Below, piece by piece: positions 5,511 through 36,730 of a DNA stretch of 64,000 bases; the stretch's first letter is position 1, and each line of letters begins with the position of its first letter. Where the stretch lies: assembly GCF_900155425.1 (NCBI RefSeq), contig NZ_LT700191.1:731918-795917 (forward strand), given 5' to 3'. This DNA comes from Parabacteroides massiliensis. Lineage in GTDB: Bacteria > Bacteroidota > Bacteroidia > Bacteroidales > Tannerellaceae. The position numbers were made by a program, and so were the translations under genes. Under the pieces are notes generated by a model that had not been told where the DNA came from, made no database searches, and saw nothing but the letters and a program-made list of their open reading frames with translations.

Positions 5511-6344
5511 TCAATCAATCGAAATTTGTTCCACCTCCACCGGATGGCTCAGGAAGACAGAGGCGGCATCGGAGAATTTGGCGGCGGATTCGGTGGTCAG
5601 GAAACGACAACTCCCCTGCTTTGTCAAACGGGCATCCATTTCGGGATGGCGGTGCAGGTAGTCGACCAGGCTTGCTGCCACATATTCGCCTTGCGAGAAT
5701 AAAGTGATCCCTGCGGGCAAGCATGTTTTGATCTTTTCGATCAGCAGCGGATAATGCGTGCAACCCAAGACGAGCGTATCGATCTCAGGATCGGTTGCCA
5801 GAATATGTTCCAGATGCTTCCGTACGAAATAATCCGCTCCAGGCGAAGCAAATTCATTATTCTCGACCAGCGGGACCCACATCGGACAGGCTTCGCCCGT
5901 TACCGTCATATGCGGAAACATCTTCTTTATCTCCAATGAATAGGAGCCGGAGGTGATGGTTCCGTTCGTCCCCAAAATACCGACATGCTTGCTCTTGCTG
6001 ATCTTATCCATCAGTTCCACCGTCGGACGGATTACGCCCAACACCCGGCGGGCCGGGTCCCACTGCGGCAAGTCGCGCTGCTGAATCGTGCGCAAAGCCT
6101 TTGCCGACGCTGTGTTGCAAGCCAGGATAACGAGCTGGCACCCCTCATTGAAAAGCGTCTCCACGGCCTGCCTTGTAAAACGATACACGACCTCGAACGA
6201 ACGCGTGCCATAAGGAGAACGGGCATTATCTCCCAAATAAATATAATCATATCCCGGCATTGCTTCTCTGATCTTATCAAAAATGGTAAGCCCTCCGTAA
6301 CCGGAGTCGAAGATACCGATCGGGCCTGGTGCTGATGAAAACAT
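5511..6344 (-). CDS. murI: Glutamate racemase
   Basis: This protein has 277 residues, close to the family norm. It converts L-glutamate to D-glutamate for peptidoglycan. Visible signatures are IGIFDSGYGGLTI near the N-terminus (catalytic-site Asp and Ser), YLGDNARSPYG, LACNTASAKAL with the first catalytic Cys, ACPMWVPLVENNE, and VLGCTHYPLL with the second catalytic Cys. It is convergent with yccF and separated from the upstream ompH gene by a terminator and a hairpin, so it is probably its own unit. No oddities are seen. Confidence 0.95.
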   Translation of the reverse strand: MFSSAPGPIGIFDSGYGGLTIFDKIREAMPGYDYIYLGDNARSPYGTRSFEVVYRFTRQAVETLFNEGCQLVILACNTASAKALRTIQQRDLPQWDPARRVLGVIRPTVELMDKISKSKHVGILGTNGTITSGSYSLEIKKMFPHMTVTGEACPMWVPLVENNEFASPGADYFVRKHLEHILATDPEIDTLVLGCTHYPLLIEKIKTCLPAGITLFSQGEYVAASLVDYLHRHPEMDARLTKQGSCRFLTTESAAKFSDAASVFLSHPVEVEQISID

Positions 6345-11868: not shown

Positions 11869-13248
11869 TTAAAAACCCAGACGGTTAATACGACCGCGCC
11901 AGATTTGGTTCAAAACATTCGAACTATTGGTCTCTTTTCCGCCGAAAAGATACATATAATTATCCTTATCCACATAGATAGAAGAGAACCCTCTTGCCTT
12001 GAATTCCGGTGGCATTACGACCAACGTGTCCGAGACGCTCCAGTTTACGCCGCCGTCACGCGACAGGTAAATGTCTGAAGAGGCTTTGCCTGCTTCATCG
12101 ATGCCACTCAACAGAAACATTTTATCGTCATATTCCGCTACGGCGACACCTTCCTGCTTATCAAAAGGTGCAGCTTCATCGTCTGTCAGTTTCGCCCAGA
12201 CTTTTCCGTTCTCCGTCGACCAAGCCGTATTCGTGAGTCTGTCATCCTTGTCTCTTCCGGCTACCACCAGCAGGCGGGCACGATACATTGAATTATAGGA
12301 AAGGCTACCGAAACCGATCAAAGGGAAACCTTCATTCAGGAGAGTGCCTTCGTTCCATTCTTTTGCTTCGTTCATATATCCGTAAACGAGCGTGCCATCC
12401 TTGTCGATAACCGCGCTAAGGGCTGACGGTTGCTTGCCGGCTGCCGTAAAGTCATCGTCCACATCGATAACGCCTAAAAGGGCTTTTATCACCGGAGTGT
12501 TTTCAACAGCCGACCAATTCTGGCCATCGGCCGAACTATAGAGAACGCCTTTCGTCGTAACGGCATAAAACGCATCTTCATAAGCGGTAATCTGGGACAA
12601 ACGGATTTCTCCGGCAGGAAGGCCCGACACAGCCAGCTTCGTCCAGTTCCGACCGTCCGTAACAGCCGAACGGTACAACTGGTAGCCTTCGCTTGCGTTT
12701 ACAGGCTGCGTATACATATAATAAGACTCGTCATTCCCTTCTCCGAAAACAACGACTTTTTCTTCTTTGACAGCACCGTCCGTAATATCTTCTTTGTAAA
12801 TGTTCCAAACCATCGAATCGGGTACGACCTGGTGGATATTGACTTGTGCGAGGTATGCTTTTGTGGTTTCACCGTCCCATAATGTGTTCACGAATTTAAC
12901 CGGTTTGGAAAAGTCCAGCGAGTCTTCCAGATTCCAATAAATCGTATCACCGACCGCTTCCTGCATGACCTGACAGGTATATACCGTCGAAGCCAGCTGA
13001 ACTTTACAGATCACCTTTTCATCCAACTTCGTCCCATAGGGCATGGAATCTATATTGAAGATACGCCCGGTTAACTGGTCTATCGTAAAAACGACATCCT
13101 CAAGTTCCGGGATAGAATCACTCGACAAAGAAAAAGATAGAATCTGACAATCTCTACTCAGCTCATATTGCGTATCATCCGAACCCAGACAAGACGACAA
13201 TAACAGAGCACAACATCCGGCTATAAACAGTACTATTCTATTTTTCAT
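11869..13248 (-). CDS. DUF6242 lipoprotein with beta-propeller-like repeats
   Basis: This protein has 459 residues, starting at MKNRIVLFIAGCCALLLSSC, a lipoprotein signal. The N-terminal part (about 20-140) is Ig-like. From about residue 150 there are recurring blocks of the kind YRSAVTDGRNWTKLAVSG, YSSADGQNWSAVEN, WSTENGKVWAKL and LSRDGGVNWSVSD, the BNR/Asp-box-like pattern of sialidase-type propellers. I recognise it as DUF6242, whose function is unknown. It is probably a surface or periplasmic lipoprotein. The next gene on the strand, the PorG-like one, begins about 87 bases on. Confidence 0.75.
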   Translation of the reverse strand: MKNRIVLFIAGCCALLLSSCLGSDDTQYELSRDCQILSFSLSSDSIPELEDVVFTIDQLTGRIFNIDSMPYGTKLDEKVICKVQLASTVYTCQVMQEAVGDTIYWNLEDSLDFSKPVKFVNTLWDGETTKAYLAQVNIHQVVPDSMVWNIYKEDITDGAVKEEKVVVFGEGNDESYYMYTQPVNASEGYQLYRSAVTDGRNWTKLAVSGLPAGEIRLSQITAYEDAFYAVTTKGVLYSSADGQNWSAVENTPVIKALLGVIDVDDDFTAAGKQPSALSAVIDKDGTLVYGYMNEAKEWNEGTLLNEGFPLIGFGSLSYNSMYRARLLVVAGRDKDDRLTNTAWSTENGKVWAKLTDDEAAPFDKQEGVAVAEYDDKMFLLSGIDEAGKASSDIYLSRDGGVNWSVSDTLVVMPPEFKARGFSSIYVDKDNYMYLFGGKETNSSNVLNQIWRGRINRLGF

Positions 13249-23895: not shown

Positions 23896-25326
23896 TTACA
23901 ACGGATTCTGCTCCATCAACGGATTAGAATCTATTTCCTGTTTCGGGATCAAGAACAGAAGCTCCTTTGATCCTGCTTCAAAATAGCCGGCTTTAGACCA
24001 AAATGTTTCATTATGTCCTTTGTTGCGTCTATCCATAGCAATATTCAAACGCTTGATGTCAAATAACCGGAATCCGTCTCCCCAGAGATCGCAACGACGT
24101 TCCATCAAAATATGCTGGATCAGGGCTTCACCCGTCACAGTCGGCTTTTGAGCTTCCGGATCGCGATTTTTAGTCAGTTCGAAAATGACCTCTTGCGCTT
24201 CCGCATCCTTATTCTGGCGAGCTAAAGCTTCAGCTTCGATCAGATACATTTCTCCGGATTTCATGTAGATGTAATCATTCGTCCATTCTCCGAAACCAGT
24301 GAACTTATAACCTATGCGGTCTTCATCGAATACTTGTTTACGTTGGTCGCTGTCGGCCATATAGTTGATAATTTCAGTACTACCCAACTTGAAGCTGCCC
24401 AATGATGCATATCCTCCGAAATTCGGATCCACTTGCGAAAAGAAAGAAGCATAACTGGTTTGTTGTTCGTCGATTAAAACGGCTCCCCACATCCATTCGC
24501 TATCGTTCGAGCTATTCCAGCCGTTTTTGTAATTACTGGTCAGGGGATAACCTTGTCGAGCTTGATGCGCCATATCGACAGCTGTTGCCCAATCGCCGGT
24601 TGTCAAGGCAAAACGAGCTTTAAGACCTTGAGCGACACTTAAATCAAGATGCGATTTATTAGGACGGGATTCATCCGATTCGGCCAGTAATGTCATCGAT
24701 TGATCAATATCTTTGAAAATCTGTTCATATACCGCTTCGACTGTAGAACGAGGCTTGGCTTCGCCACTATTGTCCAAAACCAAGGGAACTCCCAATTGGG
24801 TATTGCTTCCATTATAATCATACCAATAAGCAAACATTTGTACTAACTGCCAATAAGAATAGGCCCGATAAGCATATGCCTGTCCCTTGATATTTTTAAC
24901 TAAACTTTCGTTCAATGCAGCATCGGAAGCATTATCGATATTTTCCAGGAGCAGATTCACATTGTCTATAATATCATAATAATACGACCACGCAAATTCC
25001 AAATTTTCGGAATTGATATTCCGGTTATCCAAATACTGATACCAACCTACGAACCAACCGTATCCACGTTCCAACTGCAGGTAATCGTCTCCCATAAAAT
25101 CGATAATAATATCTATGGACTTTTGTCCGAATCGTCCATGATTATCATAATACGCATATGTGGAACGATGAATTCCGTTAAGTGCCGTTTCCGCACCATT
25201 GACAGTAGAGAACAAACTTTCGTCCGTGACGCTGTTAGTCGGAACTCTCTCCAGATACCCTTCACCACATCCCGTAGCGATCAGCAGGGATGTAGCCAAT
25301 ATGATGGAAGCTATTATTTTTTTCAT
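23896..25326 (-). CDS. SusD/RagB-family glycan-binding lipoprotein
   Basis: This protein has 476 residues, starting at MKKIIASIILATSLLIATGCGEGYLERVP; Cys20 is the lipid anchor. SusD-like signs are YLERVPTNSVTDESLF after the anchor, TALNGIHRSTY, IKGQAYAYRAYSYWQLVQMFA (TPR-like helices), SGEMYLIEAEALARQNK and ERRCDLWGDGFRLFDIKRL near the C-terminus. It sits on the cell surface as the lid of the SusC transporter. It lies 16 bases after susC. No glycoside hydrolase or regulator accompanies the pair, so the substrate cannot be guessed. Confidence 0.93.
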   Translation of the reverse strand: MKKIIASIILATSLLIATGCGEGYLERVPTNSVTDESLFSTVNGAETALNGIHRSTYAYYDNHGRFGQKSIDIIIDFMGDDYLQLERGYGWFVGWYQYLDNRNINSENLEFAWSYYYDIIDNVNLLLENIDNASDAALNESLVKNIKGQAYAYRAYSYWQLVQMFAYWYDYNGSNTQLGVPLVLDNSGEAKPRSTVEAVYEQIFKDIDQSMTLLAESDESRPNKSHLDLSVAQGLKARFALTTGDWATAVDMAHQARQGYPLTSNYKNGWNSSNDSEWMWGAVLIDEQQTSYASFFSQVDPNFGGYASLGSFKLGSTEIINYMADSDQRKQVFDEDRIGYKFTGFGEWTNDYIYMKSGEMYLIEAEALARQNKDAEAQEVIFELTKNRDPEAQKPTVTGEALIQHILMERRCDLWGDGFRLFDIKRLNIAMDRRNKGHNETFWSKAGYFEAGSKELLFLIPKQEIDSNPLMEQNPL

Positions 25327-25342
25327 TGTTTGATTCATGTTT

Positions 25343-28300
25343 TTAGAATGTTACGTTAATACCTAAGCTCACTACACGATTCGGTACATACGTATAATCC
25401 GACGTACCGTTAAAACTCTGCTGCGGGTCCATACCTTTCCGCTTACACAACAAGAACAGGTTATCACCGGTCAAGAAGACTTTACACCCCTTCATATCCA
25501 ATTTATTCTGGATAGGTTTCGGCAAAGTATAAGAAAGCGTCACGTTCTTCAGTGCCAGATAGCTGGCATTGACCAACCAACGTGAAGAAGCGGCATTGGC
25601 AGCCGGATAGCTATTCTGCAAACGAGGCACATCCGTGATATCGCCCGGTTTCTGCCAGCGGTTCTTGATATCCGCAGACCAATGCGTACCAAAAGATCCC
25701 GGATGCATCAAACTTGCGTAATTAGAGTCATACATCTTGCCTCCGATCTGATAACTGAAGAAAACGGACAAATCGAAACCTTTATAACTGAAGCTGTTCG
25801 TGAAACCGCCATACAAATCGGGAATAGCATCGCCCATATAATAATAGCCGGCTGCATTCTGGTCTTTTGTCGTTTCGCGGCCGGTCACATTACCATTGCC
25901 CTCTTCGATATCTTTATAATACAGAGCGCTACCATCTTCAGGATCGACACCGGCATATTCCCGTAACCAAAATTCATAGATTGAATGGCCTTCGGAAAGT
26001 TTCTTGGTTCCGTTAATGATTTCTTGTGGATTGCCGTCCGAGTCTTTCGGCATCTTTGTGATCTTGTTTCTAAAGAACGTTGCATTCAGATCCAGGCTCC
26101 AACGGAAATCGGATTTTTTGAAAATATCGAATCCCAACATGACTTCCAATCCCGTGTTGCGCATCGTCCCGATATTCTGCCACATATATTCGATACCGAC
26201 AGACTGCGGTTTAGGGGCTTTGAACAACAGATTGCTGGACACGCGGTTGAACACGTCTATCTCGCCGCGAAGGAAATCGAACAGAGCCAGCTCGACGCCT
26301 ACATTCAGATTAGAGTTCTTTTCCCATTCCAGTTTTTTGTTCAAGAGCTGACTATGGACAGCTCCGTTCAGGTTCCCGTTGTTTTTGTCGTCGAATGAAT
26401 ACAAACTCTGCCATCCGAAATAAATCGGGTCTCCCCATTCATCCAGAATATTATCGTTTCCTTGCTGTCCGTAAGACGCTTTCAGTTTCAAATTGTCAAT
26501 CCATGTATACTCCTTGATGAAATCCTCTTCACTCAAACGCCACGAAGCTCCCAACGACCAGAATGTACCCCAACGGGCATCCTTGTGGAAACGGGATGTT
26601 CCATCATAACGGAACGAACCGGACAAATAATACTTATTGGCATAATCGTAATTGGCCTGGAACAGGTAACCTTCCAGACTGTATTCGTTCGTATAGGAAG
26701 TCGAACCTTCTGCAACGGAACCGGCCACGATCTCTGTCGTCGGGATGGTAAAACCCGTACGGGTAGCTTCCAAATAACGATAGGTGTACATATAGTTTTC
26801 ATGTCCGCCCAATAATGCCAGGTTATGATTTCCGAAGGATTTGTTCCATGTTAAAATCTGGTTGAACGTATATGAATTCTTTTTGATATAGTTCTTGGTA
26901 GAACGACCGGAGACGCCTTCCGCATCACCATACATATTGTTCTGATAGGTTGTCTTATAGTCATTGCTGATATCCGTATTACCGGAGATTTTCAATGTAA
27001 AATCCTTCAAGAACTTGATTTCAGCCGAAACACGTGCCGAAATCATATTACGTTCCGTTGAACGATCGTCAAGAGGCAATGTCACCATCAAGTTTGAATT
27101 AGGCGCATATTGGCGTGTATGACCGGCCCAGGCATAAGGTGAAGAACCGCCTCCCATATCGTACATCGGATCGCCGTTGCCATCTTTTACGACTTGGCCG
27201 TTACCGTCATATTGATAAACAGGATAGATCGGGGCCATCATGCGTCCGTAATAGAACGGGTTGGTCGTATAAGTGCCTTCTGCCAGAAAGCCGTTTTGGT
27301 TGGAAGTCGCACCAGACAAGCCGGCATCCACTTTCAACCATGAATTAATCTGGCTCGTCAGACCGACACGTCCTGTGAAACGTTCGAAATCGGACCATCT
27401 CACCATTCCTTCTTCGTTCGTATAGGAGGCAGAAGCGAAGAACGTCGAATTCTGAGTTCCTCCATTTACCGAGACATTATATTCTTGGCGCAAAGCAGTA
27501 CGTGCCAGTTCTTTATTCCAATCGTCGTTATACAACAAACGCGCATTCGGGTTCAGTTTGCCATCCGCACCGATCAGTTGGTCATTGGCAACGTTATAGC
27601 TGTTATACCCACCCAGTTTGCCAACGATGCCATTCTTATCTCCTCCACTGGCTACTGCAGCCGCCTGTTCATGAGTATAACCATTGTTGTTTACCAACGC
27701 ATTGCGCCAGCCTTCCCACATCAGTTCATAATATTCGCCGGTACTCACACGGTCATATTCCGGGATGGCACGTGAAACGACACCCAGATTGACTTTTGCA
27801 TTCAGTTGTACCTTTCCGGACGTTCCTTTTTTTGTCGTGACCATAATCACACCGTTTGCACCACGAGCCCCGTACAGGGCAGCAGATGTTGCATCTTTCA
27901 AAACGGTAATGCTCGAGATGTCTTCCGTATTGATCGTACTGATGTCACCATCAAAAGGAGCACCGTCGACAACATACAACGGATCGTTCGAGGCATTAAC
28001 CGAACCAACGCCACGGATATGGATTTTCGCATTATCCCCCGGCATACCGGTGCTTCCTGTTACCTGAATACCAGGAGCCGCTCCTTCCAAAGCCTTTGTC
28101 AACGAGGCTGCTTGAAGGTTTTCCAGTTTTTCCGACTTGATATTGGCGGCCGAACCCGTGAAGGATGATTTTTTTGCAGTCCCGTAAGCGACAATCATCA
28201 CCTCATCCAACTCCGTCAAAGCAGTGTTTAAAACTACGCGCATCATGTTTTGAACCGGGACATCCTTCCCCACCATTCCGACAAAAGAGAATGTCAATAC

Positions 28301-28510
28301 TTTGGTTGCATTGGGAATCTCCAGAGAGAAAGTCCCGTTTACATCCGTTACCGTACCGATGGTCGTACCTTTCGCCATTACAGAAGCACCAATAATCGGT
28401 TCATTGTCTTCTGCAGAAATAACAATGCCCGTCACTTTCCTCGTCTGGGCAATCACCATGCCGATCCCGACTAAAAGGAATAGCATTACTAATGTTAACT
28501 TTTTCATCAT
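25343..28510 (-). CDS. SusC/RagA-family TonB-dependent outer-membrane transporter
   Basis: This protein has about 1055 residues, starting at MMKKLTLVMLFLLVGIGMVIAQ (a Met two codons earlier is possible). Order: signal peptide, a carboxypeptidase-regulatory-like domain (about 25-100, VTGIVISAEDNEPIIGASV), and a plug domain (LDEVMIVAYGTAKKSSFTGSA, then IRGVGSVNASNDPLYVVDG and VLKDATSAALYGARGANGVI). A 22-strand barrel ending VPNRVVSLGINVTF follows. There is no extra N-terminal signalling domain, so it should not act through an anti-sigma factor. With SusD it imports a bulky nutrient using TonB. Expression probably depends on the invertible segment just upstream. Confidence 0.95.
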   Translation of the reverse strand: MMKKLTLVMLFLLVGIGMVIAQTRKVTGIVISAEDNEPIIGASVMAKGTTIGTVTDVNGTFSLEIPNATKVLTFSFVGMVGKDVPVQNMMRVVLNTALTELDEVMIVAYGTAKKSSFTGSAANIKSEKLENLQAASLTKALEGAAPGIQVTGSTGMPGDNAKIHIRGVGSVNASNDPLYVVDGAPFDGDISTINTEDISSITVLKDATSAALYGARGANGVIMVTTKKGTSGKVQLNAKVNLGVVSRAIPEYDRVSTGEYYELMWEGWRNALVNNNGYTHEQAAAVASGGDKNGIVGKLGGYNSYNVANDQLIGADGKLNPNARLLYNDDWNKELARTALRQEYNVSVNGGTQNSTFFASASYTNEEGMVRWSDFERFTGRVGLTSQINSWLKVDAGLSGATSNQNGFLAEGTYTTNPFYYGRMMAPIYPVYQYDGNGQVVKDGNGDPMYDMGGGSSPYAWAGHTRQYAPNSNLMVTLPLDDRSTERNMISARVSAEIKFLKDFTLKISGNTDISNDYKTTYQNNMYGDAEGVSGRSTKNYIKKNSYTFNQILTWNKSFGNHNLALLGGHENYMYTYRYLEATRTGFTIPTTEIVAGSVAEGSTSYTNEYSLEGYLFQANYDYANKYYLSGSFRYDGTSRFHKDARWGTFWSLGASWRLSEEDFIKEYTWIDNLKLKASYGQQGNDNILDEWGDPIYFGWQSLYSFDDKNNGNLNGAVHSQLLNKKLEWEKNSNLNVGVELALFDFLRGEIDVFNRVSSNLLFKAPKPQSVGIEYMWQNIGTMRNTGLEVMLGFDIFKKSDFRWSLDLNATFFRNKITKMPKDSDGNPQEIINGTKKLSEGHSIYEFWLREYAGVDPEDGSALYYKDIEEGNGNVTGRETTKDQNAAGYYYMGDAIPDLYGGFTNSFSYKGFDLSVFFSYQIGGKMYDSNYASLMHPGSFGTHWSADIKNRWQKPGDITDVPRLQNSYPAANAASSRWLVNASYLALKNVTLSYTLPKPIQNKLDMKGCKVFLTGDNLFLLCKRKGMDPQQSFNGTSDYTYVPNRVVSLGINVTF

Positions 28511-28546
28511 AGACACCTTTTTTTATTTGTGAATATATTTTTATCG

Positions 28547-28569
28547 TAGTCTCAGCAGAACTACGTCAA
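28547..28569 (+). repeat. Left arm of a perfect 23-bp inverted repeat
   Basis: It begins TAGTCTCAGCAG and ends AACTACGTCAA. Its exact reverse complement is at 28865-28887. The arm itself has GTAGT and ACTAC half-sites around a nine-base asymmetric core, the layout of a recombinase crossover site. Confidence 0.9.
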
Positions 28570-28864
28570 CCCATTTATCCTTTTATTGCAAATTTATGTA
28601 CATACAGATGTCCGTTCTGAAAAGAATTTTAATGTATCGCCTCTTATTTTTATGAATATAAATTGTGTTTTCGATATTTTTGTTTAAATTGCGCCCGTTT
28701 TCAGATATATAGCCAAGCAAAGAGATGCTCGTGTCATGTAATACATATTACAGATAAATAAAGTTTCCTTGAGAACTTTCCTTTTATTGGTTAAAGCTAA
28801 AGTGATATTATTAAATATTTTACATATATAATCTCGGCAAAAACAGTAATTGATAAAACTTGAA
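28570..28864. promoter_or_regulatory. Candidate invertible promoter segment of susC/susD
   Basis: These 295 AT-rich bases lie between the inverted-repeat arms and have no open frame worth calling. On the minus strand they contain TAAATTTG (plus-strand 28589-28596), a match to the -7 box, pointing at susC about 80 bases away; the -33 element is poor. A second match, TATTTTTG, lies on the plus strand at 28675-28682. Inversion would turn the susC-facing box away. I read the sequenced orientation as ON, which is inference. Confidence 0.7.
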
Positions 28865-28887
28865 TTGACGTAGTTCTGCTGAGACTA
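28865..28887 (-). repeat. Right arm of the 23-bp inverted repeat
   Basis: It begins TTGACGTAGTTC and ends TGCTGAGACTA, the exact reverse complement of 28547-28569. The matching stops at the very next base on both sides. Confidence 0.9.
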
Positions 28888-29042: not shown

Positions 29043-29075
29043 AAACAGACAACAAGAGAGTTGTTGTCTGTTTTT
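29043..29075 (+). terminator. Terminator-like hairpin beyond the invertible segment
   Basis: A 13-bp perfect stem (AAACAGACAACAA with its complement) with loop GAGAG, followed by TT on the plus strand. No plus-strand gene lies before it. It is placed to stop transcripts leaving the invertible segment rightward before they run antisense into sprA. The rest of the 700-base gap (28511-29238) shows nothing else. Confidence 0.65.
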
Positions 29076-29238: not shown

Positions 29239-32200
29239 CTACTGTGCAAGAGAGAATCTCAGACTGATACCGTAGTTTGAGTTTGAAGTCGGGTAAGAGG
29301 CACTCGATATCAGCGGTTCGTTGATCTGGATATCATAGAAAGCACGGACCGTCAACGCACGGCTCAAACCGTAGTCAGCCGAGAACGAGATTGTCTTTGC
29401 GATGTTACCGCTGGTAGCCTGTGTCAACTGTGTATCGATTTTACGGATCAGCGACTGCATCTTGTTGTACGAGAAATCCAGACGAACGGTGAGGTCATTG
29501 CTGAAATCACGCGTCTTCTTCATCTTCAAAACTTTGTTGAACTCGGCATATTTGTACCCCAACCCGATCGTGACTTTCTTGGAAAGCGCTTCGACCAACT
29601 GGTAGGAGGTCGTATTCAGGCTCAAATTGCGGGTAGTCGAATAGTCCGCCCGGACTGTCACGTTATTCAACAGGGTCGCGTCTGCGCCTAACAAAGGACT
29701 AAACGCCTCGGTAAGACTGACGGACGAGATCGAATAAGGAGACGAAGGCGTCGGGTTATCATTCAGTATCGACTGGATATATCCCAATCCGTCCTGTCCG
29801 GCATCCACCCAATTCAGGAAGGAGGTGAAAGCGCCTACCGAATAGGAACAACGGTACTGGTGGCTCAACGTCACGCTCTTGAAATATTTCTTGACGGCTG
29901 GGATCTTGATCAAGCCGTCGTAAGTTACGCGCCAGTTAGGCAACATGCTCTTCAACGAAGGGAAAGCCGTCAGGCCCACCTTCTTCGGGTCTTTACCGGT
30001 ATAAGCGGCGAGGAAGGCCGGAATCAGGACATCGGCAGAATTCTGGTTGACACCGTTCACATTGTCGGTTCCCGGATTATAAGGCATTCCTCCTAATTTT
30101 TGATCATGGATAAAGCCCACATCCGGATATCTCAAGCCCGAATACTTGCTTTCGATACGCTGGGCAATGATCTCGCGATTCGCCAACAGCTTGTCAAAGG
30201 CTTTCGAAGAATAGTTGTTCATGGCATTGCCACTACCTCCGAAAGCACTGCCCAGTGCGATTGTCGTCATGGTAAAGTTACCTCCCATAATCTCCGGCAT
30301 ACCTTCATACATAAATTGTATTTCCGTATTACGCGTATCATTGCGGAGAGCCGTCAGGTCAATCTTCAATCCCGTGATCGGTTCGAGGTTCGCCCGTATA
30401 TTCAGATTCTTCGTACTGGTCATGACGGCAGCGTTCACGTCTCTTTCGGTATCCGTTATCAGCCAACCCTTTTCATACGCCTCGTCTATATAGCTGCGGC
30501 GCACGTCGCCGAAGGCAAAGCCTATACCGGGAGAAAGGCCGACTGAAGTACGTCCCTGGCCAAAGATATCTCCGATCTCCTGACGGAAACCGGGCAACAT
30601 CATACCGGCAGAATTCGTGAACTGGATATTGAAACGGCGCACCATCATCAGGAAGCGGGCGCTGTGTTCGGCCGCCTTATAAAGAAAATCCTCGGAAGGA
30701 GCCGGCCCCGGTATGATCGTCAACTTCAGGCGTACCGTGTCCTGGTTCAATATCTTGACTTGCGCCAAGTTGATCGGCTTGAACTTGACTCTGTAGACAT
30801 TCCCGTCCATTCTTCTGGCCGTGATCTGCACTTTCTTCGTAAACATGCCATGTTCGACCACCGTAGCGCTGTCCGGACTCAGGACAATCTCTTTCTCAAG
30901 CTTAGGCTTTTTCTTCTTCTCCGGCTTTTTAGCCGTAGCCCGGGTATTGTTGAACTTCTGGTTGATCTTCTTCAGATATTTGTTTTTGTTATAGAGGGAT
31001 AACAAGTTCAGGTTCGCCTGCAAATCGAACTGACGCTGGTTCTTGATCGTGTTACCCATCTCGATATCTTCGCTTACGGTTGCACCACGGTCCCAATTAT
31101 AGGTGGCATTATAGCTCAAGGAGGCATTGGCCCAATCCAAAACCGGGATCAACTGCAACGGCAACTGCCATGTTGCCATAAACTGCTGGTCGTACTTCAT
31201 CGGAGTTCCCAGGTCTGCAATGCTCTTCTTTACGGAGTCTTTCCATAACTGGTAACCGTCCGGGTTCAGCTCCTTGTTCACTTGGACATACGGCTCTTCG
31301 ATACGGGCATTCGTACCGGAACTGAACGTTATGTTCAGGTTATTCGTAAAGGCCCAGTTCAAACTGAAAGCACGGTCCCAATAGAAGTTCTGGCTGAATG
31401 TCACCGGGATATCGTTGGTAACACCGGTCGCCACCCCCGTCAGGTCGCGCATTTTTATTTCGTAATAATTACGCATCATGGCCGTCTGGAAGTTGATGGA
31501 CGGAGCCACGTTAAGCGCCAACTGTTTGGCATAGCGTGTATAGCCGTTGTTTTTCTTCAACAATTTATCGAACGGCTTAATCGGTTTGACATAAGGCACA
31601 TAACTATAGGCGAAATTAGCCCGGTAATCTTTTGTCGTCTCATATTCCGTCTCCGGATTTTTCTTATCATTAATACTGTATGAATATCCAAGCGTAAAGT
31701 TTGCCGGATCGTAAGGCATCGGGGTCTTGCTTTTGATATTCACACGCACGTTGTTGAATGAAACGCTCTTGATGACCGTCCTGTCCTGCGAATAGCTGCG
31801 GATCGAATCTTTCTCTGCTTTCGTTTCCGCATTATCGATTGCATCCTTCAGTTTGACATCCTGATCCAACGGGTTATATTTCGGATCGTATGTCTCCTTC
31901 GAATAGGCATAATAGAACGGGATGCTGACCTGTGTCTTTTCCGGGAACAGCTTACCCAATTCAATAGAAGTCGCCACATTATACTGCTTGAAGTCTTCCA
32001 TCCGACGTTCGTTCAACGACTGGTCGAGAGCGCCGAAGCCCGCCGTCTCGATACGTCCGCCTACGTTCACCGTACCCAAGTCGGAAAGCGCGACATTCAA
32101 ATTTGCATTGGCAGCCCATCCGCCTTCTTCATTGAAGTCGGTCAGGCGTAATTCGTTCACCCAGACCTCCCCGCTCTTCAGCTTATTCCGGACATTACGC

Positions 32201-35200
32201 ACACCGATCATGATCGTCTTCACTTCGGAAAGGCTCGGATTACCCTTGACGCGAATCGTGTTGCTCTCATTATCCGGGTCTCTGCCTAAATAGATAGTCT
32301 GGAAAGACACCCCGTTCTCTCCCGAACGCTTCTGCCGGTTACGCTCCAGTTTCAAATCAGTCAAGACCTGCAGGCGGAAGTTCAACATGTTTTCTGCCGG
32401 CCAGACAATTTTCTGATGTTCCGTATTGTTATAGTTATACTCCCCATGCGGAGTCAGCTTCAACGGGACTTCATATTCGTAATAGTTATTCTTATAGTCC
32501 GATCCCAAACGGATGAAGACTGCGAGATCGCCATCGGCAAGATCGTTTACGTCCAGTTTCGGTGCTTCAGCATGCGTAAACAGTTGCAAGCGCTTGTACT
32601 GGCGCAAATCGTAGTTCGTATTCTTGTATACGGCACGTGCATCTTGAGCGGCGAGATCCGTCACCTTCAAAGAAAGCGCCTGTTCGTTCTCCTGACGTAT
32701 CTGCGGCTGGCTCGGATCCAGAACGCGGCTGACGCCCGGAGGCAATGTATAGTTGACCGGATCTCTGTCACTGTTTTCCTCAATATTGACAGTCGAGACT
32801 TCCAATTTGCCCTTTACAGCTGGCGGCATCTTCGGATCGGACAAATCCTGTTCATAGGATCGCCATTCACCGCGTACCAGTTGCAAAGTACCGAAACGCA
32901 AAACGACCGATTCCTTGAATCCCGTCATATACATACGCATGAAACGAATCGTCTTGAAATCATTGATCGCCCCCACGCGGCGTTGGTATTGTTTTACCGG
33001 TATCTTAAACTGATACCAGGTAACGGATTCTGTCGTTCCGTTTGACAGTCTTACCAACGATGTGCGTTTATCCGCAATGAAGTTTTCGCCGACAACCGTA
33101 TCCTGCGGAGTGATCCTCACCTTGTATTCGAAATATTTTTCGTTCTTATTCAGCGTATTGTCCTGATTGATATCCTCCACATCAGGCACAGTCTTGGAAG
33201 AGGTACTGTAGCGTTCACTCGAATTGTCGATATCTTTCGAGTTTCCTTCCGTTCCGTTATAGCGTTTGTAACGAGTCAAGATATCCACATCCTGAGAATC
33301 ATAGTCCGTACCACGGAAATAGTGGAACTTGTCTCCTGCCGGATCAAAGAAAGGCGACAATTGCAACGGGTCGTTCTCCATCTCGGTAAGGGTTGCCGCA
33401 TTCAATTTCTGGCGCAACTTGTCCAGATAATCGCGATAAGCCGGATATTCCTTTTCCTCGTCCGAAGATAAGCCGTTCAAGCCGACATCCTGCAACAGAC
33501 GTGCTCCTGCCGTATTATCGAATGCATAGACCGTACTCTGTTGCTTGGGGACCTTACCCCAAACCGTATAATCGACTTTCGACGTATCGCCATCGATCGG
33601 CAATCCGTTCTCGAAGAACTTCTTTTCATCCTTCAATATGTCTTCCGATATCTCACCCAAGTTAAAATACAGGTCGCCCCCTGCGGTCTGGCGGTCGTAG
33701 ATAAACGGGTCGAGCATCCAGAATTCGATGTATTCGACATTCGCCGTCTCGAAGTCGCTCTGGTCTATCTTGCGCATCATGCCGCCAAAACGTTTTTCCG
33801 GGTTCTGCAATGTCCCGTCCGGGTTAATGTTGTCGGCATCCAAATTATACGGGCCGCGCTCCTGCGGATAGTAAGCCATGTTCAGAATCGTCAACGTATT
33901 GCTCTCGCTCATGCTTTGCTGCCGTTGCGGGAACAACTCTCTCGACTCGATGGCACGGACATAATGATTGTCCAAATACTCTTCGGGTTTGAGATGCTTC
34001 GGACGTAAAGAGGAATTCTTACGCGTGAACAATCCGTCGATCGTGTACCAGGCAAGCAAAGCGCGGCTTTTTCCGTAATCGATATTATTGGTCAGCCCGG
34101 CTTCAGGGAACAACTGAGGCGTACCGTCGTCATAAGGCACACTGGACAACTGCCAGGGATAAGGGTCGGAAAGGTCGAAATTGCTCTGCGTCGACTCGAA
34201 GTCATCCAGATACGAATATCCCCCCGTGTTCTTGTTCTCGTAATGCCCGGCGATCAAATGCGCAAATTCCGCGTTAAAAGAGATTTGGCTCGGTTTGCTG
34301 AGGTTTAGCAACGGCAGCTTGTCGAACACATTGGTAAGCCATTGGCTTTCGCCTTTATAAGCCATGTTGACACCCCAAAGCGTATTCTTGATCGCTTCGT
34401 CTCCCATTGTCGTTTTGGTTGTCAAGGGCATTTCGGACATGTGCATGATGGTGGCGCCTACCATCAGGTTCGGATTGAACTGATAGTTCAAGTCCAATCC
34501 CATCATGGTCTTGCGCTGCATACTATAGGCTGTCTGGTTTTCCAGCGAGACACTGACCGGCGTTCCTGCTGAAATAATGCTTTCGTTCAGGATTGTCACC
34601 ACGCCGGAGGTATAGTCGACGGTATAATCCACATTCTCGGTCAATATCGCTCCGCCGGCCGTCACCTTGACAGAACCGCGCGCCACGTTGGATGCGCCCA
34701 ACTGTATCTCGGCACCCGAAGAGGCTTTGTATTCCCCTTCCAGCTTGAACTTGTTCTTTTCCGCTATCTGCCGGGCGACGGTCAGCGTCGAGTCGTAGAG
34801 TTCCTGAAACACATATTTGTCGGCTATCGCATCATTGTTTATCTTCTTGCGCAGATAAGAACCGAACGGTTCCACACTCGGAAAAATAATCTTTCCATTA
34901 TCGGCCAGTATAGTCACACCTTCGATAAAGTCATATATGCCATCCGGATGCGGTTGGTTGTTGGAATCGTAGTTGTCCAGATTCAGTACCCGCAACAGAA
35001 TTTGATTGGCGATCGCTCCTTCCGGCAGATAGTTGACGTATGTGCCGGTCGTATCGCTCTGGTACATGATGTTCAACCTGAACTTTTCTTTCTGGACGGA
35101 ATAGGCTCCTAACGAATAGATGTTTTTCATCATCAGGTCCCAGAAAGGCATATCAGGCGACATGGTGATTCCTTTCAGCAGCTTCACATACAGGCAGGAG

Positions 35201-36693
35201 GCTGCCGAAGAAGGGTTGTCGGTCGAGAACTCGCCCACCTGGTAAGTCCTCCCGTCCGAATAAGTATAATTATAAGCGACGGCCAACACCTCATCCGCCT
35301 GCAACTGTGTCTTCAGCGAAATATATCCCAATTTCGTATTAACCGTATATTCGGACGCATCCAACAAGCGGGCGCTTTCCACTTCTTCATACTCCGTACC
35401 GTTGACGAAGGTCCCTCCCAACGTCTGGTTCACAGTACTGATATCACGTGCACCGGCAAACTGCTGGTTGAGGGTATTATACAATGTGTTTGTATTATTA
35501 TAAGGAATCGGGAGTACCCCCGAAGGAGAAACGACCGCCGTGTTCGAGATATTGGCATGCTCTCCCAGATCGGCAAAAGCGACCACGTTACGCGCTTGAT
35601 CGTAAGTGGCCCGTTTGTTTGTCACCCAGACTTCCACCTTGCTGATCGTGACGGGAGAAGAAATCGTGTTCAGGTTTTTTACCGCTTCGTCATAGCGGTC
35701 ACGGAAATAGTGAGACAGAAAGAAATGGCGGTTTTCCTCATACTGGTCGATCGTCAGTTCGAATGGCTTTGTCTGCACGCCTCCTTTTGAGCTGACCGTT
35801 TTCGATTCCGATTCCTGTTGCGCAAACAATGCATTGACTCTCAATTTGCCGAACTGAAGATCCGCTTTCATTCCGAACAGGGCCGCTCCTCCGTTGATCA
35901 GGGAGTTGCTGGTCGTCATGCTCACATTGCCGGCTTCCAACGACTTGATGATTTCGTCTTCTTCACCGGTATAAGCTAATTTCAATTTCTTGGAGTCGAA
36001 GTCGAAAGAGGTTTCGGTATTATAGTTCATGTCGAAATTCACTTTACTGCCGACCGACGCTTGCACATTCAATTGGACACTCTCGTCGAAATTAAAGAAC
36101 GTACGGTTACGAGCGCGTTCCGGCAAAGACGGGTTCTTGGTCTTGTTCTGCTTCATGCCTAACACCACTTCGGCCGATCCTTGCGTTTTCACCCGTACGC
36201 CGCCCGGTCCGAAGATACGCTCCGCCGCACCGATATCGAACTGCATATCTGCTAAGTTGAACTGCTTATTGGCAGCCTTTTGAAACTCTTCTTCGTTTTT
36301 CTGGCGATAGTAGGATTGGATGGATTTCTGGAAACTATAGTCCTGGTATTCTTCGGGAGTCAACGAAATCGGAGTAGTCAGATCGACATCGCCCAATTTG
36401 GTGCGGACCACATACGTTCCGGTCCTGATGTCGTATTCAACCACCGACTTCACGTTTTCCGGTGTCTTCAAGTCTGCGGGCGACTGCTTGGTAAGATCTT
36501 GATATTCTTCGGGAACCGTCTTGGCTACCGGGAAGCGGGTACGTACCTTCGGTATCGTATCGTCCGGTACGACCGGCAGTTTGACATCCGGCAACGACAT
36601 CGCATAAGCCAGGAAATCCGTATTCATCGAATACAGGCCTGCGCCAAACAGTAGAATTGTTATCCAGAGTATAAATTTCAGTATCCTTCTCAT
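29239..36693 (-). CDS. sprA: SprA/Sov giant outer-membrane protein (type IX secretion translocon)
   Basis: This protein has 2484 residues, starting at MRRILKFILWITILLFGAGLYS, an N-terminal signal; four extra upstream residues are unlikely. The size, the DVDLTTPISLTPEEYQDYSFQKS block, FDIGAAERIFGPGGVRVKTQG, RNRTFFNFDESVQLNVQASVG and endless beta-strand segments to the C-terminal YGISLRFSLAQ identify the SprA/Sov family. In Flavobacterium and Porphyromonas SprA/Sov is a 36-strand barrel through which type IX cargo leaves the cell. It is last in the dxs-trkA-trkH-ruvA-sprA series, 37 bases after ruvA. A PorG-like gene occurs elsewhere in the window; the remaining type IX genes are not seen. Confidence 0.93.
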   Translation of the reverse strand: MRRILKFILWITILLFGAGLYSMNTDFLAYAMSLPDVKLPVVPDDTIPKVRTRFPVAKTVPEEYQDLTKQSPADLKTPENVKSVVEYDIRTGTYVVRTKLGDVDLTTPISLTPEEYQDYSFQKSIQSYYRQKNEEEFQKAANKQFNLADMQFDIGAAERIFGPGGVRVKTQGSAEVVLGMKQNKTKNPSLPERARNRTFFNFDESVQLNVQASVGSKVNFDMNYNTETSFDFDSKKLKLAYTGEEDEIIKSLEAGNVSMTTSNSLINGGAALFGMKADLQFGKLRVNALFAQQESESKTVSSKGGVQTKPFELTIDQYEENRHFFLSHYFRDRYDEAVKNLNTISSPVTISKVEVWVTNKRATYDQARNVVAFADLGEHANISNTAVVSPSGVLPIPYNNTNTLYNTLNQQFAGARDISTVNQTLGGTFVNGTEYEEVESARLLDASEYTVNTKLGYISLKTQLQADEVLAVAYNYTYSDGRTYQVGEFSTDNPSSAASCLYVKLLKGITMSPDMPFWDLMMKNIYSLGAYSVQKEKFRLNIMYQSDTTGTYVNYLPEGAIANQILLRVLNLDNYDSNNQPHPDGIYDFIEGVTILADNGKIIFPSVEPFGSYLRKKINNDAIADKYVFQELYDSTLTVARQIAEKNKFKLEGEYKASSGAEIQLGASNVARGSVKVTAGGAILTENVDYTVDYTSGVVTILNESIISAGTPVSVSLENQTAYSMQRKTMMGLDLNYQFNPNLMVGATIMHMSEMPLTTKTTMGDEAIKNTLWGVNMAYKGESQWLTNVFDKLPLLNLSKPSQISFNAEFAHLIAGHYENKNTGGYSYLDDFESTQSNFDLSDPYPWQLSSVPYDDGTPQLFPEAGLTNNIDYGKSRALLAWYTIDGLFTRKNSSLRPKHLKPEEYLDNHYVRAIESRELFPQRQQSMSESNTLTILNMAYYPQERGPYNLDADNINPDGTLQNPEKRFGGMMRKIDQSDFETANVEYIEFWMLDPFIYDRQTAGGDLYFNLGEISEDILKDEKKFFENGLPIDGDTSKVDYTVWGKVPKQQSTVYAFDNTAGARLLQDVGLNGLSSDEEKEYPAYRDYLDKLRQKLNAATLTEMENDPLQLSPFFDPAGDKFHYFRGTDYDSQDVDILTRYKRYNGTEGNSKDIDNSSERYSTSSKTVPDVEDINQDNTLNKNEKYFEYKVRITPQDTVVGENFIADKRTSLVRLSNGTTESVTWYQFKIPVKQYQRRVGAINDFKTIRFMRMYMTGFKESVVLRFGTLQLVRGEWRSYEQDLSDPKMPPAVKGKLEVSTVNIEENSDRDPVNYTLPPGVSRVLDPSQPQIRQENEQALSLKVTDLAAQDARAVYKNTNYDLRQYKRLQLFTHAEAPKLDVNDLADGDLAVFIRLGSDYKNNYYEYEVPLKLTPHGEYNYNNTEHQKIVWPAENMLNFRLQVLTDLKLERNRQKRSGENGVSFQTIYLGRDPDNESNTIRVKGNPSLSEVKTIMIGVRNVRNKLKSGEVWVNELRLTDFNEEGGWAANANLNVALSDLGTVNVGGRIETAGFGALDQSLNERRMEDFKQYNVATSIELGKLFPEKTQVSIPFYYAYSKETYDPKYNPLDQDVKLKDAIDNAETKAEKDSIRSYSQDRTVIKSVSFNNVRVNIKSKTPMPYDPANFTLGYSYSINDKKNPETEYETTKDYRANFAYSYVPYVKPIKPFDKLLKKNNGYTRYAKQLALNVAPSINFQTAMMRNYYEIKMRDLTGVATGVTNDIPVTFSQNFYWDRAFSLNWAFTNNLNITFSSGTNARIEEPYVQVNKELNPDGYQLWKDSVKKSIADLGTPMKYDQQFMATWQLPLQLIPVLDWANASLSYNATYNWDRGATVSEDIEMGNTIKNQRQFDLQANLNLLSLYNKNKYLKKINQKFNNTRATAKKPEKKKKPKLEKEIVLSPDSATVVEHGMFTKKVQITARRMDGNVYRVKFKPINLAQVKILNQDTVRLKLTIIPGPAPSEDFLYKAAEHSARFLMMVRRFNIQFTNSAGMMLPGFRQEIGDIFGQGRTSVGLSPGIGFAFGDVRRSYIDEAYEKGWLITDTERDVNAAVMTSTKNLNIRANLEPITGLKIDLTALRNDTRNTEIQFMYEGMPEIMGGNFTMTTIALGSAFGGSGNAMNNYSSKAFDKLLANREIIAQRIESKYSGLRYPDVGFIHDQKLGGMPYNPGTDNVNGVNQNSADVLIPAFLAAYTGKDPKKVGLTAFPSLKSMLPNWRVTYDGLIKIPAVKKYFKSVTLSHQYRCSYSVGAFTSFLNWVDAGQDGLGYIQSILNDNPTPSSPYSISSVSLTEAFSPLLGADATLLNNVTVRADYSTTRNLSLNTTSYQLVEALSKKVTIGLGYKYAEFNKVLKMKKTRDFSNDLTVRLDFSYNKMQSLIRKIDTQLTQATSGNIAKTISFSADYGLSRALTVRAFYDIQINEPLISSASYPTSNSNYGISLRFSLAQ

Positions 36694-36694
36694 G

Positions 36695-36730
36695 TTAATT
36701 GTCAATTGCCCATTGTCAATTATCCATTGC
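36695..36730. repeat. ATTGTCAATT-type repeats between ruvA and sprA
   Basis: TTAATTGTCAATTG and CATTGTCAATTATCC stand side by side. A similar cluster lies between trkA and trkH at 38862-38900. Confidence 0.5.

Follow-up and report, generated by a model that had tools for sequence, protein, structure and literature searches.

A candidate promoter inversion switch upstream of a susC/susD pair in Parabacteroides massiliensis

The susC/susD locus and its inverted repeat

The window analysed here is a stretch of 64,000 nt from the genome of Parabacteroides massiliensis (contig NZ_LT700191.1, positions 731,918 to 795,917), and it contains a susC/susD pair on the minus strand. The susC gene (25343-28516) encodes a SusC/RagA-type TonB-dependent transporter of 1057 aa with Plug and CarboxypepD_reg domains (Pfam), and its likely start codon is the ATG at 28510 or 28507. 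The adjoining susD gene (23896-25338) encodes a protein of 480 aa with SusD domains (Pfam). Such pairs in the outer membrane set what a gut bacterium takes up, and they may also influence the phages and immune responses that it encounters. On the far side of the gene-free stretch upstream of susC lies sprA/sov (29239-36705, minus strand), the gene for the outer membrane translocon of the T9SS (TIGR04189), which reads towards this stretch. The far side also carries ruvA and two Trk potassium-transporter genes. A perfect 13-bp hairpin with a T-rich 3' side (29043-29073; -16.5 kcal/mol, z -5.2) lies before the sprA stop codon; it may be a terminator, and the terminator scan made no call there. 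It might protect sprA from transcription in the OFF state that is proposed below.

The first-pass annotation had described a perfect 23-bp inverted repeat around 295 gene-free bases upstream of susC, and this description holds exactly. The susC-proximal arm (28547-28569, plus strand; TAGTCTCAGCAGAACTACGTCAA) and the susC-distal arm (28865-28887, the same 23 bp on the minus strand) are 100% complementary and 295 nt apart, making a stretch of 341 bp. Each arm contains a 15-bp core, AGTCTCAGCAGAACT, at 28548-28562 in the proximal arm and at 28872-28886 in the distal one. The putative invertible segment between them (28570-28864, 295 nt) has no genes and carries a candidate promoter, and its orientation is assigned from the -7 box. 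Short inverted repeats flanking an intergenic segment upstream of susC are the arrangement of an inverton. Half-sites of the form GTAGT...ACTAC had been proposed for both arms; the left arm has them, whereas the right arm reads TTAGT...ACTAC, which leaves TAGT as the outer half-site within the repeat. The proposed nine-base core between GTAGT and ACTAC was not borne out. The unit in common with other loci is instead AGTCT-CAGC-AGAACT, an imperfect AGTTCT-NNN-AGAACT palindrome.

With up to three mismatches allowed, the 23-bp arm occurs at two places only in the window (none in any of 100 shuffles), at the same two places only in the 5.0-Mb genome, and in none of 40 relatives. A genome-wide search for the arm had been suggested as a check, and its outcome depends on the length searched: the full arm returns the two copies in the window, and the 15-bp core occurs at 37 places.

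The segment contains two oppositely directed -7-like boxes, as had been reported. The first, TAAATTTG (28596-28589, minus strand), points at susC and lies 26 nt from the arm core, and it matches the -7 consensus TAnnTTTG given in the accessible text of PMC4747536. The second, TATTTTTG (28675-28682, plus strand), points away from susC, lies 189 nt from the distal arm core and is probably due to chance. No TTG is found 18-23 nt upstream of the first box and there is no consensus -33 element, so the promoter match depends on the -7 box alone; a sigma-70 scan found 5 sites, where shuffles averaged 4.0. Since this box faces susC, the pair is probably ON in the sequenced orientation.

A genome-wide class of inverted site pairs

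A search with 861 bases around the segment matched 17 of 38 genomes of the genus, its own included. Other susC upstream regions from this search carry inverted repeats with a degenerate 15-bp core in common with the window, of which AGTCTTTGAAGAACT, AGTTCTATCAGAACT and AGTCTCAGTAGAACT are examples. The core pattern AGTYYYNNNRGAACT (15 bp) was drawn up after these loci had been viewed, and because two of them belong to the own genome, the count there is not wholly independent: 57 strand-wise matches, at 37 places, against 30 for the reversed control. These places include 14 neighbouring pairs less than 1 kb apart, 13 of them inverted and one direct, whereas the reversed motif has 26 places and not a single pair within 1 kb. 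The nine other places are the third site of a susC shufflon, two contig ends (C2 and C4) and six without a nearby partner; five of these six were fetched, and two (L055, L056) are near a susC. When read in inverted register, the two arms of every one of the 13 inverted pairs have an identical central NNN, and this centre differs between most pairs, with AAA common to two. Four of the 13 have arms with a one-base mismatch, always T versus C at core position 4, which is outside the centre.

A susC gene lies next to ten of the 13 inverted pairs (the window, L049, L053, L054, L059, L061, L062, L064, L065 and L066). At L061 susC lies on both sides, and a flip there may therefore swap one transporter for another. 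The other three are at loci of the ECF-sigma/FecR type: L050 and L060 lie by a sigma gene, and L067 has only a FecR neighbour, its other neighbour having no Pfam match. The direct pair (C3:295516/295589, locus L063) has susC on each side; its two sites (L063:5017-5104) lie 73 bp apart between divergent susC genes, and the counterparts of this locus in G013 and G014 have a third, inverted site about 0.7 kb off. The genome carries about a dozen such putative switches, which share one recognition code and probably one flipping enzyme. Candidate switches of this class can be listed from sequence alone by the 15-bp core and the rule of close pairs.

Longer repeats also occur at some loci. In G021 a susC repeat of the same class has perfect arms of 140 nt (L022:894-1033 and 1318-1457), far beyond the length of the core. 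Inverted arms of 40 and 88 nt surround susC start regions outside the core repeat in G042 (L013) and G012 (L024), respectively, which suggests an either/or switch between two transporters.

Promoter boxes were compared over all loci fetched by then, which gave 54 distinct segments in 39 sequence clusters, and the exact sequence TAnnTTTG was required. A box directed outward and 4-30 nt from the arm core is present in 19 of 39 clusters, whereas an inward one is present in none; for single-base shuffles the mean was 1.8 and the maximum 6. Among the 54 unclustered segments, 28 have an outward box near the arm and one has an inward box. The boxes face the next open frame at some loci of the class and face away from it at others, as expected if both ON and OFF states were sequenced. 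The repeat in the window falls in the AGTCT subgroup, where only 3 of 12 clusters have an outward box near the arm; because of this and the missing -33 partner, the ON state of the susC/susD pair is less sure than the promoter pattern of the class.

Orientation was compared at class loci that could be matched across three genomes, the own one and those of the relatives G013 and G014. Two of ten such loci are flipped and eight have the same orientation. In the clearer flipped case, the interior of L067 in the own genome is 99.4% identical to that of L203 in G013 when inverted and 51.8% as it stands, and the flanks are collinear (right, 100% over 40 nt; left, 81%). The unequal base at core position 4 keeps with its flank in both genomes at this locus, which is expected if the exchange sits in the centre. 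The second case is L060 against L222 of G014 (73.9% inverted, 46.1% as is), with a left flank that is collinear over 684 nt and a weak right flank (65%). The loci with the same orientation are L050/L214, L061/L223, L199/L213, L202/L221, L200/L219, L196/L215, L049/L215 and L194/L217 (with L063). L199/L213 had been taken as inverted and was rejected as such, because both flanks swap and the whole locus is reversed. The count excludes L049/L196, which is ambiguous because susC-like sequence matches on either side; it also excludes the shufflon loci and any match of one locus with a different one. These comparisons support the view that members of the site class invert in nature.

The breaks in a draft assembly point in the same direction. 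A looser pattern, AGTYYNNNNRGAACT, was used for G041, G013 and G014, and its strand-wise counts against the reversed control were 43 versus 39, 64 versus 38 and 51 versus 50, respectively; since they are near the control in two of the three relatives, it is the pairing and the position of the sites, not their number, that bear the argument. The draft G041 has 36 distinct places, many of the single ones due to chance, and 15 of the 36 are within 7 bp of a contig end, where 0.016 would be expected by chance. Paired ends have the arm in common and then diverge; C79/C124 (18 nt) and C104/C143 (21 nt) share the arm only, and C66/C98 and C100/C125 keep some similarity past it (37 and 33 of 60 nt). 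Among the 15 ends, no partner was found for C76, C77 and C120. At C4, C35, C127 and C142 the ends fall within susC-type coding sequences that resemble one another, and repeats may contribute to these breaks. Such flush breaks are what an assembler would produce when a culture holds both orientations. In the own genome, the break between the start of C2 and the end of C4 was tried as a signal of the same kind and set aside, because its end flanks resemble near copies of the L067 flanks and a longer repeat could cause the break.

The annotation's interpretation of such a repeat as an invertible promoter thus holds for the site class, with its same-core inverted pairs, an inversion between genomes, flush contig breaks and outward -7 boxes. 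The same data bear on the idea that the 341-bp stretch is static, either as paired operators of a regulator or as a small mobile element that ends in inverted repeats. Perfect arms and an AT-rich, gene-free interior would fit such an element, but interiors vary by locus (39 clusters among the 54 segments), centres agree within pairs and mostly not between them, one class member inverts, sites coincide with assembly breaks, and at the shufflon the same core stands in frame within susC coding sequence. The mobile-element version was rejected because the interiors vary from locus to locus, which copies of a dispersed element would not do, although the core is conserved and so are the centres within pairs. 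A static element as a whole is very improbable.

For the window itself, inversion is predicted from its membership of the class: the segment would flip and thereby switch susC/susD on and off. No copy in the flipped state was found among the genomes examined. In G021, the one relative in which part of the interior aligns clearly (62 nt, 77%), that part is oriented as in the sequenced segment. Both observations would suit a relic, that is, a site that formerly inverted and is now fixed in one orientation in the species. On the other side, the arms are identical over 23 bp, and their centre is CAGC, unlike the TTGA found on both arms in the orthologues of P. gordonii and G021; recombination that equalises the two arms would have this effect. 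A relic is accordingly held to be improbable, though less so than a static element.

The candidate recombinase and the susC shufflon

The annotation had concluded from the lack of a nearby intact recombinase that the enzyme would act in trans, and this is supported: none of the 26 PF00589 matches in the genome is in the window, and the strongest candidate lies at a distance of 417 kb. Two of the 26 proteins adjoin class sites. P0001 (G000:C3:342118-343287) is a tyrosine recombinase of 390 aa with Arm-DNA-bind_5, SAM_5 and Phage_integrase domains, and its sequence carries R, HxxR, H and Y motifs, which we take to be the catalytic set. P0002 (C1:205624-206850) lies beside a class site with an AGTTCT-type core.

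A susC shufflon with sites of the same core adjoins P0001; its first site is 341 bp from that gene, and its three sites are at L064:5129-5143, 5952-5966 and 12073-12087 (G000:C3, 343.6-350.6 kb). The shufflon site AGTTCTGCAAAGACT stands in frame within susC and reads Ser-Ser-Ala-Lys-Thr. A second susC, which lacks its start, opens with this site 6.1 kb further along and is closely preceded by stops in its frame; a third fragment is inverted at the first site. Two successive inversions would be predicted to join the expressed start to the silent cassette. Two to four sites with the same SSAKT reading are found in each of the P0001 neighbourhoods of G013, G014, G019, G021 and G023. A tyrosine recombinase with an adjoining susC/susD shufflon is the arrangement that marks a Tsr0667-type regulon.

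P0001 is widespread in the genus. At E <= 1e-60 it has matches in 25 of 38 genomes (20 of the 26 good ones), near full length with at least 65% identity in 18 and partial in seven, and at this threshold the match is single in 24 of the 25. At E <= 1e-90, a search across the order matched 3 of 149 genomes, of which two belong to Parabacteroides. In the protein database 6187 proteins match, and among the best 120 of these all that are named by organism are from Parabacteroides. Searches against solved structures and NCBIfam returned generic Xer/integrase relatives only. For 20 of the 25 matches outside the own genome, neighbourhoods with flanks of up to about 10 kb were fetched (347,677 bases). 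Core sites are present in 15 of the 20; they number 35, compared with 3 matches to the reversed motif, and include AGTCT cores like those of the window. The stretches of G019, G021 and G023 had been shifted to cover known sites, and 5 of the 35 sites are therefore more than 10 kb away; in these three genomes the nearest core site is still about 5 kb from the P0001 match.

Presence of the sites and presence of the enzyme were also compared. The A-type pattern AGTCTNNNNRGAACTAYG has 35 matches in 14 of 38 genomes (control, 3), and P0001 has a match in 12 of the 14; the two exceptions are the drafts G004 (95% complete) and G015 (76% complete). Seen from the enzyme, the pattern is present in 12 of the 25 genomes with a P0001 match and in 2 of the 13 without, which is a tendency and not proof. 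In a rival reading, the segment is inverted by some other enzyme, either a tyrosine recombinase such as P0002 or a serine invertase: the genome has 26 PF00589 proteins, P0002 adjoins a class member with an AGTTCT-type core, and G004 and G015 have A-type sites and no P0001 match. Against this, P0001 matches are single in 24 of 25 genomes at the threshold used, and 15 of the 20 neighbourhoods have core sites, AGTCT cores included, at distances of up to about 10 kb, whereas relatives of P0002 above 41% identity are found only in G004 and G016 (81% and 65%). Another enzyme is thus rather unlikely, and P0001 is most likely the one that would flip the segment in the window.

On this evidence it is highly probable that the 341-bp stretch is a site-specific inversion switch and a member of the genome-wide AGTYYYNNNRGAACT set, with P0001 acting in trans as its most likely enzyme. 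In the proposed mechanism, the tyrosine recombinase would bind both identical arms, exchange strands in the central bases and invert the 295-bp promoter segment. In the sequenced state, the box at 28589-28596 faces susC, and susC/susD would be transcribed from the segment through the arm (ON). In the flipped state, the promoter would point to the bases without genes that precede the sprA stop codon, leaving the pair silent (OFF). P0001, encoded 341 bp from a shufflon site, would in this way act on the distant arms in the window.

The pair itself appears to have a history apart from that of its neighbours. Compared with P. gordonii MS-1, SusC is 93% and SusD 89% identical, whereas SprA is 69% and RuvA 79% identical. 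A repeat with the same core (18 bp, centre TTGA) accompanies the pair in P. gordonii as well. When eight window proteins were compared by tblastn with the 15-kb P. gordonii locus (L095), only susC and susD were found, and none of the six other neighbours tested. The pair lies beside sprA in none of the eight relatives fetched, five of which have no SusC match at that place and three (G012, G016 and G041) a match of only 29-32%. Horizontal transfer of the pair together with its switch would be the simplest reading. Backbone identity is itself uneven (SprA 97% and RuvA 83% in G014), and identity alone is therefore no proof of transfer.

Two further observations concern these loci. In G013 and G014 (L263 and L264), sprA is 96-97% identical and the adjoining ruvA 93% and 83%, respectively, which may reflect recombination at the locus. 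In P. gordonii (L004:1046-1507), the interior of the orthologous segment is an imperfect palindrome of 434 nt, 71% identical to its own reverse complement.

A broader proposal is that a genus-wide recombinase is a master flipper of an in-frame susC shufflon and a dozen promoter switches, and that susC/susD pairs move between species with their own switch and use the resident enzyme, the pair in the window being such a module; we regard the chances for and against it as evenly balanced. If one enzyme randomises many pairs, each Parabacteroides population would be a mix of surface types. Loss of a single gene would then lock the whole set, which would give a handle on why such heterogeneity persists.

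Comparison with known phase-variable systems

Invertible promoters and the switching of SusC/SusD genes are known in Bacteroidales from the accessible text of PMC12632263 and PMC10939037, and inversion sites have been reported in P. distasonis (PMC5903667, in the part available). In a literature search that was thin on subscription journals, no paper was found that names this core or a Parabacteroides susC shufflon in the text accessible to it.

P. distasonis capsule switches: According to the available text of PMC12118408, the invertible capsule promoters of P. distasonis have a palindromic 17-bp IR, GCTACTYRGNRAGTAGC, that encloses a putative promoter region (314-345 bp), and a site-specific integrase lies nearby. 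The genus is the same, and a palindromic repeat bounding a putative promoter is likewise present in the window. In contrast, the core is GCTACT..AGTAGC there and AGTYYY..RGAACT here, and the targets there are 10 of 12 capsule operons (PMC12118408).

Mpi of B. fragilis: In the accessible text of PMC4747536, Mpi is a serine invertase and the master of 13 regions, seven of which are capsule promoters. The role of a master invertase for many regions is similar, but Mpi is a serine enzyme and the candidate here is a tyrosine recombinase.

Tsr19/BF2766 of B. fragilis: The same source, as far as its text was available, describes one tyrosine recombinase that inverts a local and a distant promoter, with the -7 sequence TAnnTTTG (PMC4747536). 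Both features resemble the present case, in which one tyrosine recombinase would serve near and far promoters with the same -7 consensus. The B. fragilis targets differ from those here: one is an operon for extracellular polysaccharide, and the other a cluster that includes a lipoprotein gene (PMC4747536).

Tsr0667 of B. fragilis: The Tsr0667 regulon, with phase variation of SusC/SusD, was described by Nakayama-Imaohji 2009, as cited in the accessible parts of PMC4747536 and PMC11852207, and it comprises shufflon-type inversions at three SusC/SusD clusters, together with nine further invertible regions (PMC4747536). The system in P. massiliensis is similar in its tyrosine, shufflon-type invertase and its SusC/SusD shufflon, and has one shufflon and 12 further close inverted pairs. 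It differs in its genus, and the likeness is drawn from the part of the published description that was available. SusC/SusD phase variation of this kind is already known in Bacteroidales, and the locus in the window is very probably a new instance of it.
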